Below, one piece after another: positions 6,655 through 30,040 of a stretch of DNA of 44,619 nucleotides. Made by a program: the position numbers and the translations under genes. Positions within the stretch are counted from its first letter, which is position 1. Each line of letters opens with the position of its first letter. Location of the stretch: positions 1-44,619 of IMG/VR virus record IMGVR_UViG_3300031251_000043; one strand, written 5' to 3'. Source of the stretch: a virus. The notes under the pieces were generated by a model. That model was not told where the DNA came from and made no database searches. It saw nothing but the letters and a program-made list of their open reading frames with translations.

Positions 6655-6923
6655 GGACCCTCCAGGACGCCGGTGGCGAATTTGGAACTTACGCCTACTT
6701 GAGCTACTGCTTGGAAAATGGCATTCCACTTCCAGTGGACCTACTGGCGCACCTTGCGGCTCGCGGGTGGGTCATTCAGGACCAGGGAGAAATCAAGCCT
6801 GCCGAAGTGGCGGCTATCAACGAAATCGTGGAGGAAGAACAACTCGACCTCCTCGACGGTGCCGACAGGGACTACCTCGGGTATATCTTCGAGGACGCAG
6901 AGCGCCCTTGCGATACCGAATAA
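6651..6923 (+). CDS. Hypothetical acidic protein
   Basis: TTG at 6651 overlaps the previous TGA and gives a 90-aa acidic protein with no membrane segment. It has an EFGTYAYLSYCLENGIPLPVDLL stretch near the N-terminus (split here by residues 10-32) and a Glu/Asp-rich C-terminal half (INEIVEEEQLDLLDGADRDY). The coupling overlap and lack of another start favour TTG. No family is recognised. It directly precedes the ssDNA-binding protein gene. Confidence 0.55.
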   Translation: MRTLQDAGGEFGTYAYLSYCLENGIPLPVDLLAHLAARGWVIQDQGEIKPAEVAAINEIVEEEQLDLLDGADRDYLGYIFEDAERPCDTE

Positions 6924-6931
6924 CATACCAC

Positions 6932-6960
6932 TTGACACTAAACATAGGAGAGCATACATT
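6932..6960 (+). promoter_or_regulatory. Promoter-like element overlapping the ssb start
   Basis: TTGACA at 6932-6937 and TACATT at 6955-6960 are 17 nt apart and carry the ATACCAC flank shared with 321. The AGGAG ribosome-binding site lies inside the spacer and the TTG start codon overlaps the -10. If the element works as a promoter, the transcript would begin inside the ssb gene, so it may serve downstream genes or be a composite signal. Confidence 0.4.
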
Positions 6961-7522
6961 GACAAAAGAGGTTTCATTCGTTTCCCCCATTGGTATCGCG
7001 GTGTACCCGAAGATCACCAAGCCGGACACAAAGGGCGAGTACGCCGACAATAAGTACAAGACGGAACTGGAGTTGTCATCGGCCGACCTTGAGAAGGTAC
7101 GCGCGGAAATCAAGTCCAAAATGAAGGGCATGAAGTTCAAGGTCTCGCAGCCCAAGATGCCCATCAAGACCGGGAAAGATGGCATCGAGCGCCTCATCGC
7201 GAAGTCCAAGTTCCTCCCAACCATCATCGACGCTCGCAAGGTGAAACTGTTCGACGCCAACGCGGCACGGACGGACCCGGATGAGTTCAAGAAGATTGGG
7301 GACCTCTGGATTGGTGGCGGCTCGCGCATCAAGATTGGATGCACCCTCTACAACTACGAGAAGGGCGTCAGTCTCCAATTGAACATCGTCCAGATCATTG
7401 AGCTGGTCGGTAGCTCACTCGATGACTTCAGTGACGAGAGTGGCACCGAGGAAGGCGAGACCCTTAACGACCTCTATCAACCCGAAGAAGGGGACGATGG
7501 CGAAGACGCGCTCGACATTTAA
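6959..7522 (+). CDS. Single-stranded DNA-binding protein (T7 gp2.5 type)
   Basis: A 187-aa protein in the genomic place of T7 gp2.5, before endonuclease I and primase-helicase. It has an N-terminal beta-rich region (SFVSPIGIAVYPKITKPDT; GEYADNKYKTELEL), a central Lys-rich DNA-contact region (RAEIKSKMKGMKFKVSQPKM) and a strongly acidic C-terminal tail (SDESGTEEGETLNDL, EEGDDGEDALDI). That tail is the hallmark of phage ssDNA-binding proteins that recruit polymerase and helicase. The TTG start at 6959 is chosen because AGGAG lies 8 nt upstream and no ATG fits. Confidence 0.8.
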   Translation: MTKEVSFVSPIGIAVYPKITKPDTKGEYADNKYKTELELSSADLEKVRAEIKSKMKGMKFKVSQPKMPIKTGKDGIERLIAKSKFLPTIIDARKVKLFDANAARTDPDEFKKIGDLWIGGGSRIKIGCTLYNYEKGVSLQLNIVQIIELVGSSLDDFSDESGTEEGETLNDLYQPEEGDDGEDALDI

Positions 7523-7925
7523 AGGTAGGCCTAAGCTCAGGGCCCACTCGTTCCGCTCAGGTCTGGAGGAAAAGGTCTCTAAGCAGCTGGAGGATGCCAA
7601 CGTACCATTCGAGTACGAGTTCCTTAAGCTACGGTATGTGGTCCCTGAGAAGGAACACACGTACACGCCAGACTTCAGGCTTCACAATGGCATCATAGTG
7701 GAGACAAAAGGACTCTTCGATACGGACGACCGCAAGAAAATGGTATTGGTCAAGGAGCAACACCCGAACCTTGACATACGTATGGTCTTCCAGAACGCAT
7801 CATCGAAGATACGCAAGGGTAGTAGGACATCCTACGCAGACTGGTCCATAAAGGAAGGCTTCAAATGGGCCGACCACGGACGTATCCCTGAGGCTTGGCT
7901 CATCGAGGCCAGTAAGAAACGATAG
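7497..7925 (+). CDS. Endonuclease I / Holliday junction resolvase (T7 gp3-like)
   Basis: A 142-aa nuclease (T7 gp3 is 149 aa) that resolves branched DNA and helps degrade host DNA. The PD-(D/E)xK-type active site is visible: Glu in FRSGLEEKVSKQL (about 24), Asp in YTPDFRL (about 58) and Glu-x-Lys in IIVETKG (about 67-69). The basic C-terminal half (SSKIRKGSRTSYADW) resembles the family's DNA-contact region. The start at ATG 7497 overlaps the end of ssb by 26 nt, as in compact T7-like genomes. Confidence 0.88.
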   Translation: MAKTRSTFKGRPKLRAHSFRSGLEEKVSKQLEDANVPFEYEFLKLRYVVPEKEHTYTPDFRLHNGIIVETKGLFDTDDRKKMVLVKEQHPNLDIRMVFQNASSKIRKGSRTSYADWSIKEGFKWADHGRIPEAWLIEASKKR

Positions 7926-12779: not shown

Positions 12780-13081
12780 CCCCAATCGAACACGCGGCAA
12801 TCGAGATTGTCAACATGGCGCACACCCGAGGGTTCTGTGGTGTCGCCTTAGAGCACACCAGGGACATCCTTACGCGGGTCAAAGAGGGCACCTACGAAGT
12901 CCCCGAGGAGCTTAGCCCCTTGGCCTTCGAGATGGAGCTACAGGCCATCCATGAGGCTACGGACCATGAGGCCCTGCCGCCACCTTGGAACTCCAAGCTC
13001 CTTGCGGAAGCCGCGGCTGAGGATGAGATCGACAACGGCCTTGCGAAGACCCAAGGGGCCTACAAGGGGAGACGTAAGTGA
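12776..13081 (+). CDS. Hypothetical protein (101 aa)
   Basis: A 101-aa, mostly helical acidic protein (IEHAAIEIVNMAHTRGF at the start; LAEAAAEDEIDNGLAKTQG near the end). The ATG overlaps the previous TGA, and the last codons overlap the GTG start of the HNH gene. Before the HNH insertion this gene was probably adjacent to the exonuclease. No family is recognised. Confidence 0.55.
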   Translation: MTPIEHAAIEIVNMAHTRGFCGVALEHTRDILTRVKEGTYEVPEELSPLAFEMELQAIHEATDHEALPPPWNSKLLAEAAAEDEIDNGLAKTQGAYKGRRK

Positions 13082-13494
13082 CGCCTTGTGTTGAGTGGCC
13101 TTTGTCCAGAAACCGTAAGGGCTACGGGCAAGCATGGTCCACTACAAGGAAGACCATGTGTGGAGCACATATCAAAGCCTGGGAGGATAGAAACGGTCCT
13201 GTTCCCCCAGGACTTCAAGTTCTTCATGAGTGTGATAATCCACCATGTACAAATGTTGATCACCTGTTCCTGGGGACTCATTCTGACAACATGCGAGACA
13301 GGCATACCAAAGGTAGATATGTGGGGCTAAAAGGAGAAAAGAGTTCACACTCTAAACTTACATGGTCTGAAGTACGGAGCATTAGAATTGCCTACCCCTC
13401 AACTAGCCAAAGAAAACTAGCTAAGGCGTATGGTGTGTCATTAAGGACTATACAATTCATAGTCACAGACAAACATTGGAAGGAGGCAGCGTGA
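13078..13494 (+). CDS. HNH homing endonuclease with C-terminal HTH
   Basis: A 138-aa protein starting at GTG 13078, overlapping the previous stop. The HNH_3-type core reads VLHECDNPPCTNVDHLFLGT followed by HSDNMRDRH, with His, two Cys ligands, Asn and His in the usual order. A C-terminal helix-turn-helix (STSQRKLAKAYGVSLRTIQF) probably gives site recognition. The last bases supply the ribosome-binding site (GGAGG) and overlap the GTG of the exonuclease gene. The DNA is more AT-rich than its neighbours, consistent with recent insertion between two coupled genes. Confidence 0.88.
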   Translation: MTPCVEWPLSRNRKGYGQAWSTTRKTMCGAHIKAWEDRNGPVPPGLQVLHECDNPPCTNVDHLFLGTHSDNMRDRHTKGRYVGLKGEKSSHSKLTWSEVRSIRIAYPSTSQRKLAKAYGVSLRTIQFIVTDKHWKEAA

Positions 13495-17827: not shown

Positions 17828-18067
17828 TTATCCGATGTGAAATAGGTGAGCCATATCGCGCCATTGGCCACCAAAGGCCCACAGGGCAATAGGCGTCACC
17901 ACGAAGCCAATCTTGACGAGCTTAGCGACAGCCTTATCGTACCCACGGTTCATAAGAATGCTCTCGTGGATCGTTGTGAGCTTGCTGTCTATCTTGCCGA
18001 CAGTCTCAATGATGTCGTCAATGCGTGTCTCTAGGCGCGCAATGCGCTCCAGTTCGGAAGCGGTCAT
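17828..18067 (-). CDS. Membrane-anchored coiled-coil lysis-region protein
   Basis: A 79-aa protein starting at the ATG that overlaps the holin stop. Residues 1-45 form a heptad-like helix (ASELERIARLETRIDDIIET, then VGKIDSKLTTIHESI), followed by one hydrophobic segment (LVKIGFVVTPIALWAFGG, about 53-70). This layout resembles XhlA-like or holin-accessory proteins found next to phage holins. It is probably transcribed with the muramidase and holin. Confidence 0.6.
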   Translation of the reverse strand: MTASELERIARLETRIDDIIETVGKIDSKLTTIHESILMNRGYDKAVAKLVKIGFVVTPIALWAFGGQWRDMAHLFHIG

Positions 18068-24700: not shown

Positions 24701-25827
24701 TTACGCAACCTTACGGACGTACATCGACGCAGCGAAGTTCTTATGCTTCAAGCTGAACTCGCCGACAATCATCTGGCGGGTCGAGTCGCCAACCTTCGCG
24801 AGCGTCTCACGGCTCCACGGGCGAAGCACTTGCTGCTTCCACATCGCGGTCTCGAAGATCAGGTAGTCGGTGGCAAGCTGGAAGCGGTTCAGGACCACCT
24901 TAACTTCACCGAACGGCGACACATAGAGGTCAACCACGTTGACAATCTTCTGCGAAGCCGACCTGTCTTCGGTCGGGATGGTACGATAGCGACCAGCCGC
25001 CGACGCATAGCCAGCAATGGCCGTGCTTTCCGCCGGGGGGATCATGAGGATGTCCGGGTCCACACCGTTCGTATAGAGGGTCTGGAGAGCCGTCAGGAGC
25101 TGGGCTTCCGTCATGGCAGTCGAGGAGCCACCCGTGTGGATGAACGCCGGGCTACACATGGCCTGGAAGGACGCCATGTTACGAGCGGCACCCGTCGAGC
25201 CAGCAGCCGAAGACTGACCGTTGAGCATGATGCCTTCAAGGTCGCGCTTGACTTCCTTCGAGGCCTTCATGATCTGATACGCCGTTTCCTTGGCGCGGCC
25301 ATAGCGCGTCACCGCGTCCGTGGTCTCAGCAATCTTGATGGTCTTCGAGAGAATCTGCGTGTAGTTCGAGCGCATGACAGTCGCGACCGGAGCGGTTTCC
25401 GAAGCGTCGAAGCCATCAACCTGAGCGTTCGAGAGGTTCACCGCAGCGAGGGAATCTTCCTGCCACTGGAACAGCGTATTGTGGATCTTCTCGTCGCTGG
25501 TCGCGGACGTGAAGGGGGTCTTCGTGGGGCTGATGTTGCTGATGACATCACTGATGTCTTCTTTTTTCGATGTGTTCACCGTAGGTCGTTAAACTACGGC
25601 CGCTATTAAGCAGCCCTATGTTACCATAGGGGCCAGACTATATCTTCACGGCTTGCGCCGGTCTCCCGTTTCGAGCCACTTGGCCCTACACTTAGTCGTT
25701 ACACGTTCAACCCCAAAGGGAAGCTTCGCTCGGTATTGTCCACTAGGGGTGTCCACCGAATTAGAGAGATTTTACGTGAGCCTAAAAGAGGTTAACCCAC
25801 GACATCGTAAGAGGTGAAAGCTGCCAT
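24701..25827 (-). CDS. Major capsid protein, interrupted by a group I intron
   Basis: Join 25827..25795 with 25576..24701 to give 302 aa. Exon 1 encodes MAAFTSYDVVG and exon 2 begins NTSKKEDISDVISNISPTKT. Together they rebuild the N-terminus typical of SU10/DUF5309-like major capsid proteins (TxxxVGNREDLSDVIxNISPTDTPF in relatives). Downstream, ETTDAVTRYGRAKETAYQIM and KEVKRDLEGIMLNGQSSAAG (the linker into the HK97-like domain), a central LMIPPAESTAIAGY and LVVLNRFQ-type strand, and the C-terminal AMWKQQVLRPWSRETLAK also fit. Without splicing the first in-frame intron codon is TAA, so no full-length protein can be made. AAGGA in the upstream HNH gene serves as ribosome-binding site. Confidence 0.88.
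25577..25794 (-). ncRNA. Group I self-splicing intron in the major capsid gene
   Basis: A 218-nt intron without an internal ORF. The 5' exon end GTGGGT pairs with the internal guide GCTCAC (25781-25776), with the conserved U-G wobble at the splice site. The core carries CCTAGTGGACAATACCGAGC (P4-P6 region, very like the T4 td intron), GTAACGACTAAG and GAAGATATAGTCT, whose GACTA/TAGTC pair forms P7. The last intron base is G (25577). The exons join in frame. Subgroup IA is likely from the T4 td resemblance. Confidence 0.9.
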
Positions 25828-25829
25828 AA

Positions 25830-26270
25830 CTAATTGAAATCCTTATTATTTTCTAAATATTTAATTGCTTCAGCTAAGAACACTACGTTTTCCTTTAGGT
25901 GTCCTATGCCTCTGTTACAGTTACTACACAGCAATCCTCTGACCTTACTCGTCGCGTGGTCATGGTCTACGTGAAGTGTTTTATCTGTAGGTGTCTTACA
26001 TATAGCACACACACCTCCTTGGAACTCCTTAAGGAATTCAAATTCAAAATGTGTTATGCCAAACTTGTTTTTCAAATGAGCTTCGCGGGCCGACATTCTG
26101 TTGTCCTTGCGCCACTCATTGACCGCATTAGGGTTTTTCTTGCGATACTCTTTTTGATACTCTTTATTATAGTCGGGATTTTTCGCCACCCAAGAGTCCT
26201 TAGAAGCCTTATCCCTATCAGGATGCTTCTTGCGATACCGCATATTAATCTCAGATTTCGTAAGTGACAT
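25830..26270 (-). CDS. Endonuclease VII-type HNH homing endonuclease upstream of the capsid gene
   Basis: A 146-aa protein. The C-terminal half is a recombination endonuclease VII-like HNH domain: GVCAICKTPTDKTLHVDHDH, then GLLCSNCNRGIGHLKEN, with two CxxC zinc ligands and HVDHDH catalytic residues. The N-terminal half is very basic (MRYRKKHPDRDKASKDSW; YNKEYQKEYRKKNPNAVNEW) and probably binds DNA. GGAGGG precedes the ATG. The stop codon lies 2 nt before the capsid ATG. The gene is more AT-rich than its neighbours. It lies outside the intron, so it probably promotes its own and the intron's spread by cutting nearby. Confidence 0.88.
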   Translation of the reverse strand: MSLTKSEINMRYRKKHPDRDKASKDSWVAKNPDYNKEYQKEYRKKNPNAVNEWRKDNRMSAREAHLKNKFGITHFEFEFLKEFQGGVCAICKTPTDKTLHVDHDHATSKVRGLLCSNCNRGIGHLKENVVFLAEAIKYLENNKDFN

Positions 26271-26341: not shown

Positions 26342-27325
26342 TTACTCAACAGCCATACGGGCCAGCAAGGCCTCAACGGCGTCGTCATCTGATCCCGTTT
26401 GCTTAAGCTTCTGGAAAGCCTTGTCACCGGGTTTTGGGCGGGCTTTTTGTGTCACCGTTTCCTGTGAACCCTTAAGAATTTTCTTAGGGGTCTTATCAAT
26501 TTTATTAGTGACACTTTTTGCGGCTTGGCCCTTTTGATAGAGCATAGCCATGTGGAGCAGCTTGATTGCATTGGGGTCCACAAGCTGATCAATCACACGC
26601 TTGTCGATACCTTGGCTAATAGCGAACGCCGAGACTTCCTTGTACTTGTCTTCATTCCAGCCCTTGATGCCCTTCTCGGGATCAGCCAGAGCTTTCCAGG
26701 CCTCTTGGCCCTGCTTCACCAGCTCATTGTGGCGAGCGGTGTGTATCTCGTTGACGGTGCCATCAAGGCTTGTCTTGAGATACTCTACGTCAGCGAAAGC
26801 CCTCTGGGCTTCGTTGTGTAAGGCCGTCAGCTCCTCAGCGGAGACGTTCGGGTCCTTGGATAGCGCGAGGAAATTGATCTTCGCGTAGGGCTCAGCGCGC
26901 GCAGTGGCACGTTGGAGCATTGCTTCGAGACCGGCCACATACTTCGTGGCTTTGTCTTCGGTAGCTTGTTTGATGGTATCAATTTCGGCGGTACGAGTGG
27001 TAAGCTCAGCATCCTTGCCGAACACAGCCGCCAACTCGGATACTTTAATCTCCTTACCATTGATCGTCACATAGGCATCAGCCTCAGGATCAATGACAAC
27101 TTTCTTGCTGGAAGTTTCCTCTTCGTCACCTTCGGCTTCGTTATCGTCGCCTTCAGTTTCGTCTTCAGGAGCCTGCTCGTCACCCTCTTGGGGTTCGTCA
27201 GTCCCAGTATCCTCATTGTCCTCAGGCTCAGGAGCAGCTAGTTTCTTCTTGTCTTCTTCGATACCTGCCGCTTTCAGGAGGGCCTCAACGCCACTATCTT
27301 CGTCGTCGAAATCTTCAATATCCAA
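26342..27325 (-). CDS. Capsid scaffold / assembly protein
   Basis: A 327-aa highly charged protein between portal and capsid genes, the usual place for scaffolds. The N-terminal third is extremely acidic (EPEDNEDTGTDEPQEGDEQA; PEDETEGDDNEAEGDEEETS). The middle is helical and coiled-coil-like (AELTTRTAEIDTIKQATEDK; ARAEPYAKINFLALSKDPNV). The C-terminus is basic (KIDKTPKKILKGSQETVTQK), as in scaffolds that bind coat protein through a basic helix-turn-helix. TTG 27325 with GAGGA upstream is preferred; GTG 27355 is an alternative giving 337 aa. Confidence 0.8.
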   Translation of the reverse strand: MDIEDFDDEDSGVEALLKAAGIEEDKKKLAAPEPEDNEDTGTDEPQEGDEQAPEDETEGDDNEAEGDEEETSSKKVVIDPEADAYVTINGKEIKVSELAAVFGKDAELTTRTAEIDTIKQATEDKATKYVAGLEAMLQRATARAEPYAKINFLALSKDPNVSAEELTALHNEAQRAFADVEYLKTSLDGTVNEIHTARHNELVKQGQEAWKALADPEKGIKGWNEDKYKEVSAFAISQGIDKRVIDQLVDPNAIKLLHMAMLYQKGQAAKSVTNKIDKTPKKILKGSQETVTQKARPKPGDKAFQKLKQTGSDDDAVEALLARMAVE

Positions 27326-27602
27326 TGTCTGTTTCCTCTGTTTCGCCTTCGTCACTCTCGGCGATGTCTTTGGCTTTAGCTATGGCCTCTGCGGCCCTTA
27401 CATATTGATGGAGACCGTCAACCAAGTCTTTCATGCCCCTATATTGAAAATAGAGGCTCTCCCTGGTCTTCGTTTCGTGGGGTTGTGTGTTGGAGAGGGC
27501 CTCAAGTATTCTACTTTGCATGTCCTCGACGAACAGCATGATGTCACTTGAGAGCACCTCACCAGCACGGATACCCATTTTGAGGATGTCCTCCTGGGTC
27601 AC
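27315..27602 (-). CDS. Small helical protein between portal and scaffold (95 aa)
   Basis: A 95-aa helical acidic protein (MTQEDILKMGIRAGEVLSSD; LYFQYRGMKDLVDGLHQYVR; AEAIAKAKDIAESDEG) starting at GTG with AAGGA 6 nt upstream. Its end overlaps the scaffold start. Small proteins of this kind are common between portal and scaffold genes of podoviruses. No specific family or function can be given. Confidence 0.55.
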   Translation of the reverse strand: MTQEDILKMGIRAGEVLSSDIMLFVEDMQSRILEALSNTQPHETKTRESLYFQYRGMKDLVDGLHQYVRAAEAIAKAKDIAESDEGETEETDIGY

Positions 27603-29662: not shown

Positions 29663-30040
29663 TCACATGGCATGCATCGCGGCAAGCCTTTTGGACGTAG
29701 GTGTGTGATGATATGCTACGAGATTTTGTAGGACCTTTGGGTCGTCGTTTAGAAGACCAAGAGCCATGTTACATGCCCCACATAGAAGTCCTCTGACTTC
29801 TTCGGTATCGTGGTTGTGATCAACATGGAAGGTATTATGGTGCCCTCCAGGTTCTGTAGTACCACATCCGGCACACATTCCATTCTGTGCGTTGAACAAT
29901 AGGTCCCAATATTCAGGTGTTATATCATACACACGCTTCAGGTGTTTGCGCCTCGCAGCGGCCTTACCCTTTGGGGTCTGCGCATACTTTGATGCACGAG
30001 ACTTGCCCTTAGGTGATTTATTATATTCAGCCTGTGTCAT
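29663..30040 (-). CDS. Endonuclease VII-type HNH homing endonuclease between terminase and portal
   Basis: A 125-aa protein with a basic N-terminus (KSPKGKSRASKYAQTPKGKA) and an endonuclease VII domain: GMCAGCGTTEPGG, TFHVDHNHDTEEVRGLLCGA and CNMALGLLNDDP. It thus has two CxxC pairs and the HVDHNH catalytic motif. The ATG overlaps the terminase TGA. It is homologous in layout to the protein at 25830..26270 and is a mobile gene inserted between terL and portal. Confidence 0.88.
   Translation of the reverse strand: MTQAEYNKSPKGKSRASKYAQTPKGKAAARRKHLKRVYDITPEYWDLLFNAQNGMCAGCGTTEPGGHHNTFHVDHNHDTEEVRGLLCGACNMALGLLNDDPKVLQNLVAYHHTPTSKRLAAMHAM

Follow-up and report, generated by a model that had tools for sequence, protein, structure and literature searches.

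The DNA analysed here, IMG/VR record IMGVR_UViG_3300031251_000043 (positions 1-44,619, referred to below as the window), is a virus record of metagenomic origin and has a mosaic layout. Genes for an integrase, a T7-type RNA polymerase, a primase-helicase, polymerase A, endonuclease I and a ribonucleotide reductase domain are found on the plus strand between positions 2553 and 17189, and SU10-type portal, scaffold and capsid genes are located on the opposite strand between positions 18064 and 39872. The T7-type endonuclease I (7398-7925, plus strand; Pfam Phage_endo_I, E = 1.3e-54) represents the phage's own Holliday-junction resolvase. On the minus strand, the scaffolding protein gene (26342-27355; phrog_3927, E = 5.2e-21) is followed by a gene for a 146 aa protein with an Endonuclease VII motif (25830-26270; Pfam Endonuclease_7, E = 1.9e-23) and then by the major capsid gene, which is present in two parts. 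The first of these (25795-25827, minus strand) encodes MAAFTSYDVVG, an N-terminus conserved in 82 relatives, and ends in CGUGGGU; the second (24701-25567, minus strand) starts with KKEDISDVISNISPTKTPF and encodes 288 aa with a match to the SU10-type major capsid protein (Pfam SU10_MCP, E = 8.9e-77) and to the major head protein (phrog_1328, E = 2.9e-78).

Reading from the ATG at position 25827, the capsid frame yields MAAFTSYDVVG and then runs into TAA, the first codon of an insert (GGT|TAA, 25797-25792, minus strand), as expected from the initial annotation, in which the frame was described as broken after 11 codons. The same annotation regarded the inserted segment as devoid of an ORF and, indeed, it contains stops in every frame. 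Once the insert is removed, a capsid protein of 299 aa is obtained, reading MAAFTSYDVVG-KKEDISDVI. Automated ORF calling places the start at a GTG at position 25579 and reports an ORF of 292 aa, an error that had been correctly foreseen. A capsid gene of this kind, when annotated automatically, thus receives a false GTG start and loses exon 1, so that the principal virion protein is deprived of its actual N-terminus in the annotation.

The initial annotation proposed that the insert is a group I intron, to be checked on the minus strand with the Rfam model Intron_gpI (RF00028). This model produced a match of 59.9 bits (E = 7.8e-13), above its gathering score of 50, and it is the sole Rfam match in the window. 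The matched range, 25888-25614, overshoots on the 5' side and ends short of the P9.1 and P9.2 stems. The overshoot arises because the model fits a P2 stem, which is absent from this intron; the 5' boundary at 25888, which extends into the endonuclease gene, was consequently rejected. Minimum-free-energy folding was also dropped as a line of support, as the value obtained for the intron (z = -0.71) was not separable from that of shuffled sequences, although such folds cannot contain the P3/P7 pseudoknot.

The segment (25568-25794, minus strand, as are all of the elements below) opens with UAACC, which carries the in-frame stop, and ends in UGAACACAUCG with a terminal omega-G at position 25568. 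P1 (25775-25801) is formed by the exon sequence CGUGGGU and the first intron U (25801-25794), which pair with the guide GGCUCACG (25782-25775) to give CGUGGGUU/GGCUCACG, with a U.G pair (U25795.G25781) at the 5' splice site. The guide pairing with GTGGGT that had been noticed earlier, including its U-G at the splice site, is therefore present. The intron side of P10, UCUUUU, is located at 25784-25789, and its partner is AAAAGA of exon 2 (25565-25560). The 5' strand of P3, UCUCUC (25764-25769), pairs with 25667-25662; it is followed by P4 (25730-25759; 25759-25754 with 25735-25730), which surrounds P5, and by P6/P6a (25703-25729; 25729-25728 with 25704-25703). P5 and P6a are short and imperfect. 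A td-like P4-P6 block had been reported, and a td-like block spanning P3-P6 is indeed real. P7 (25636-25697) pairs GACUA (25697-25693) with UAGUC (25640-25636), the very GACTA/TAGTC pair that was originally recognized, and encloses P7.2 (25686-25682 with 25677-25673), the 3' strand of P3, and P8 (25660-25657 with 25652-25649, with a GCAA loop). Finally, the P9-P9.1-P9.2 region (25579-25631) comprises P9 (25631-25625 with 25620-25614, with a GUAA loop), P9.1 (25613-25610 with 25603-25600) and P9.2 (25599-25594 with 25584-25579), a layout that is common to related introns.

A fixed-length DNA pattern of the intron core gave zero matches, and a core pattern of P4-P6 with a variable P5 loop retrieved 60 IMG/VR contigs. 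The window was aligned with 25 related cores that lack an ORF between P4 and P7, giving a set of 26 introns. Across P3, P4, P6, P7, P7.2 and P9, 98.6% of the cells in this alignment are paired, as opposed to 28-45% after sliding of the 3' strands. Double-sided changes are seen in 17 pairs (shuffled mean 11.8, with none of 500 shuffles as high), and 144 cells are double-changed, compared to a shuffled mean of 36. The covarying stems are P3, in which all six pairs are double-changed and 100% of the cells are paired, P7.2 and P9; P4 (100% paired), P6 and P7 are invariant and hence uninformative on their own. A conserved catalytic P3-P8 core with P7, as found in group I introns, is thereby indicated by both the RF00028 match and the covariation. 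The covarying P7.2 is an extra stem between P7 and P3, a trait of subgroup IA, and its presence places the intron with the IA (td-like) introns. The proposal of a group I intron in the major capsid gene therefore stands: the segment following codon 11 of this SU10-family gene is, judging from its sequence, almost certainly such an intron, and it is predicted to splice. An SU10-like capsid gene (19-717) also occurs on one of the 60 contigs (L206), but the related group I core of this contig is not within that gene and lies approximately 3 kb further downstream.

Where the earlier proposal did not hold is at the 3' end of the intron, which had been set at position 25577 for a length of 218 nt, with MAAFTSYDVVG-NTSKKEDISDVI taken as the canonical N-terminus of the capsid family. 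An intron that ends at 25577 would also leave the frame open and would likewise terminate in a G, and the capsid would then carry an additional NTS at the junction. The resulting VG-NTSKKED, however, requires a gap against 82 of 82 relatives, while an end at 25568 (ACAUCG|AAAAAAGAAG) gives VG-KKED, to which all 82 align gaplessly around the junction, each with a higher score. Removal of the intron up to 25568 thus restores the host gene. The residues NTS are absent from the junction in the capsid relatives inspected, which read YDxVG-KKED, and are foreign to the family. Furthermore, the joined N-terminus (54 aa) matches the intact capsid of Cronobacter phage A24 as a single piece over residues 1-54, with 61.1% identity.

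The pairing at the 3' splice site points in the same direction. A P10 of 6 bp arises only with an end at 25568, where AAAAGA constitutes bases 3-8 of exon 2 and pairs with UCUUUU just 5' of the guide; an exon 2 starting with AACACAUCG, as dictated by an end at 25577, makes no such 6-bp P10. In addition, the 3' layout P9-P9.1-P9.2-(U/C)GAACA..CG recurs among related introns and is matched by the tail of the window intron; the related introns continue through the UGAACACA tail before ending. For the related polymerase and helicase introns, the boundaries, set by intronless homologues, fall after the matching UGAACACA..CG: the polymerase peptide of Vibrio phage S4-7, joined after GAACACAAACG, is 90% identical in one piece to the intronless homologue of Vibrio phage 193E37-1, and the helicase peptide of Klebsiella phage Asterion, joined after GAACAUAACG, is 100% identical in one piece over 42 residues to the intronless homologue of Klebsiella phage Klyazma, with the GKS of its Walker A motif restored. 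The KZY1 helicase (L010), for which joining at the annotated ORF end produced a wrong junction, was left out. Three independent lines, namely the gapless relatives, the 6-bp P10 and the tails of related introns, thus place the 3' splice site at 25568, and give an intron of 227 nt rather than 218 nt; we hold this corrected end to be highly probable and consider one at 25577 improbable. With this boundary, the locus very probably contains a 227-nt, ORF-less group I intron of the IA type (25794-25568) that would be spliced in cells.

It may be asked whether the intron is still functional, since the GTG at 25579 opens an ORF of 292 aa from which a capsid could be made from exon 2 alone, with the intron dead or unspliced. 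However, no Shine-Dalgarno-like sequence was seen by inspection ahead of this GTG, and the N-terminal YDxVG segment, which such a protein would lack, is conserved throughout the capsid family. The splice sites, P1, P10 and the core are all intact, and exon 1 still fits the capsid family well, a fit that decay would have erased. We regard a dead intron as very unlikely. Even less credence is given to an assembly artefact by which the intron or the endonuclease gene was joined in from another phage: the window is a metagenomic record of which a close copy was not found, but an artefact would not yield exact splice signals, with a P1 and a P10 tied to this capsid's own exon bases.

In the proposed splicing pathway, the 227-nt ribozyme would splice itself out of the late transcript. 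A guanosine would attack after U25795, which the U.G pair of P1 keeps in place; exon 1 would next attack behind omega-G 25568, while P10 holds exon 2. The spliced RNA would encode the full-length capsid protein of 299 aa, while translation of unspliced RNA should halt at the stop codon that opens the intron.

The initial annotation did not mention the Endonuclease VII-like gene adjacent to the intron. It is the sole ORF between the scaffold gene and the capsid start, stops 2 nt ahead of the capsid ATG and lies 35 bp from the intron, and its GC content is 40%, against 52.7% for the window. Its 146 aa product contains CAIC...HVDHDH...R...CSNCN, all within the C-terminal half, in agreement with the residues (CX2-4C, D-H-H, R, CX2C-N) listed for F-CphI and the DHHRN family (PMC6083498). 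In podoviruses that possess endonuclease I, it has been argued that an Endonuclease VII-motif protein is unlikely to act as the resolvase (PMC6083498). As this phage does encode endonuclease I, in addition to a protein with a C-terminal Endonuclease VII motif as seen for F-CphI, a resolvase role for the latter is less likely. Based on these features, the 146 aa protein is probably a free-standing homing endonuclease of the DHHRN type, resembling F-CphI.

Both the gene and the intron appear as insertions. In relatives with a checked upstream region, the capsid gene directly follows the scaffold gene with nothing between them. An RF00028 match was not detected on any of 80 contigs with related capsids, nor an Endonuclease VII relative at any of the 80 capsid loci; many of these contigs are short, so that absence refers to the stretch covered. 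The lack of RF00028 matches agrees with the earlier remark that capsid genes are rarer intron hosts, although introns in capsid genes have already been published (PMC3706429). An ORF-less intron with a free-standing endonuclease gene nearby, both of them insertions, is the layout of collaborative homing, as described for psbA of S-PM2, for T7-like phages and for the terminase of ICP1 (PMC6083498, PMC3984707, PMC10448857). In such a scheme, the Endonuclease VII-like protein would cut intronless capsid alleles at or near the insertion site, repair would then copy the endonuclease gene and the intron together, and the intron would shield its own allele from cutting.

This scheme has to be weighed against the possibility that the intron splices but is not mobilized by the endonuclease, whose gene would then be adjacent without being related to it and would encode either a free-standing enzyme directed at some other target or a resolvase. 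Endonuclease VII-like genes usually occur without a nearby intron: when 49 records encoding Endonuclease VII relatives of the 146 aa protein were examined, a recognizable group I intron was present in only one, and this type of gene alone is therefore no predictor of an intron. Similarly, a second Endonuclease VII-like gene in the window (29663-30040, minus strand) stands away from any intron. Against an unrelated neighbour, on the other hand, are the position of the gene as the only insertion between scaffold and capsid, so close to the intron, the absence of both elements from the relatives checked, a layout matching that of F-CphI and psbA (PMC6083498), and, as regards a resolvase, the endonuclease I that the phage already has. 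We therefore give an unrelated neighbour a substantial chance, albeit one clearly short of even, and lean slightly towards collaborative homing by the intron and the adjacent endonuclease, with cleavage and homing predicted from the gene arrangement. More specifically, the pair might form an active collaborative-homing unit directed at the conserved YDxVG|KKED codons of SU10-type capsid genes, and would then be a second DHHRN example after F-CphI/psbA; to this fuller proposal we accord somewhat less than an even chance.

The second Endonuclease VII-like gene (Pfam E = 1.3e-21) is situated between the portal and terminase genes, and its product shares 35% identity over 106 aa with the capsid-adjacent protein; it is possibly another homing endonuclease. 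An ORF with an HNH_3 endonuclease domain, located amid the replication genes (13078-13494, plus strand; E = 1.3e-13), is possibly a third. Among the records with an Endonuclease VII relative, G023 (the contig of L034) also displays sub-threshold group I matches at 6810-7042 and 7689-7924, of 35.4 and 28.5 bits, respectively.

A close parallel for the arrangement is that of F-CphI and the psbA intron of cyanophage S-PM2 (PMC6083498), in which a conserved gene likewise hosts a group I intron next to a free-standing endonuclease, and in which the endonuclease, like the window protein, has an Endonuclease VII motif with its catalytic motif at the C-terminal end. The host gene in that system is psbA and cleavage has been demonstrated, whereas in the window the host is a capsid gene and cleavage is predicted. 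The terminase intron of ICP1 (PMC10448857) similarly has its endonuclease outside the intron, beside the N-terminal exon of a virion-assembly gene; the endonuclease there is of the T5orf172 type and the host a terminase, in contrast to the Endonuclease VII-like protein and capsid described here. As regards the host gene, the major capsid gene of mycobacteriophage LittleE also contains an intron, the removal of which at the RNA level was established by RT-PCR and protein sequencing (PMC3706429). That intron is approximately 819 bp long, carries its own endonuclease ORF and resides in another capsid family, unlike the 227-nt, ORF-less intron of the window. A capsid intron of lactococcal phage Tuc2009, removed at the RNA level, is cited in the same report (PMC3706429). 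Introns in capsid genes have thus been published, as have ORF-less introns accompanied by a free-standing endonuclease; for capsid genes of the SU10 family, our literature search did not retrieve any publication describing an intron. What is new here is the host gene family, by which SU10-family capsid genes join the list of group I intron hosts, and the combination of a capsid intron with an endonuclease neighbour. The latter also provides a compact pair for testing the published collaborative-homing idea, requiring one protein and two DNA substrates.

With respect to the intron itself, those in the Asterion primase/helicase gene, the S4-7 DNA polymerase gene and the terminase genes of Escherichia phage K1E and Lelliottia phage phD2B resemble the window intron in their P3-P9 core and in an exon 1 ending in GGU, and the Asterion and S4-7 introns additionally share the P9.1/P9.2 layout and a GAACA-type tail before omega-G. 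They differ in that they reside in replication or packaging genes, none in a capsid gene, and most contain or adjoin an ORF. The exon junction of the Asterion helicase, AUGGGU|AAG, is similar to that of the capsid, GUGGGU|AAA, and the guides are also close (AGCUCAUC and GGCUCACG, respectively). The intron may have reached the capsid gene from the Walker A site of a helicase gene, where the exon junction is much alike. A route for introns to jump among unrelated essential genes, and one open to testing, is suggested by this likeness of the exon ends (GGU|AA) in helicase and capsid. By inspection, the K1E (L171) and phD2B (L007) terminase introns and the Asterion (L173) helicase intron pass straight from the P1 guide to P3, and seemingly lack P2.
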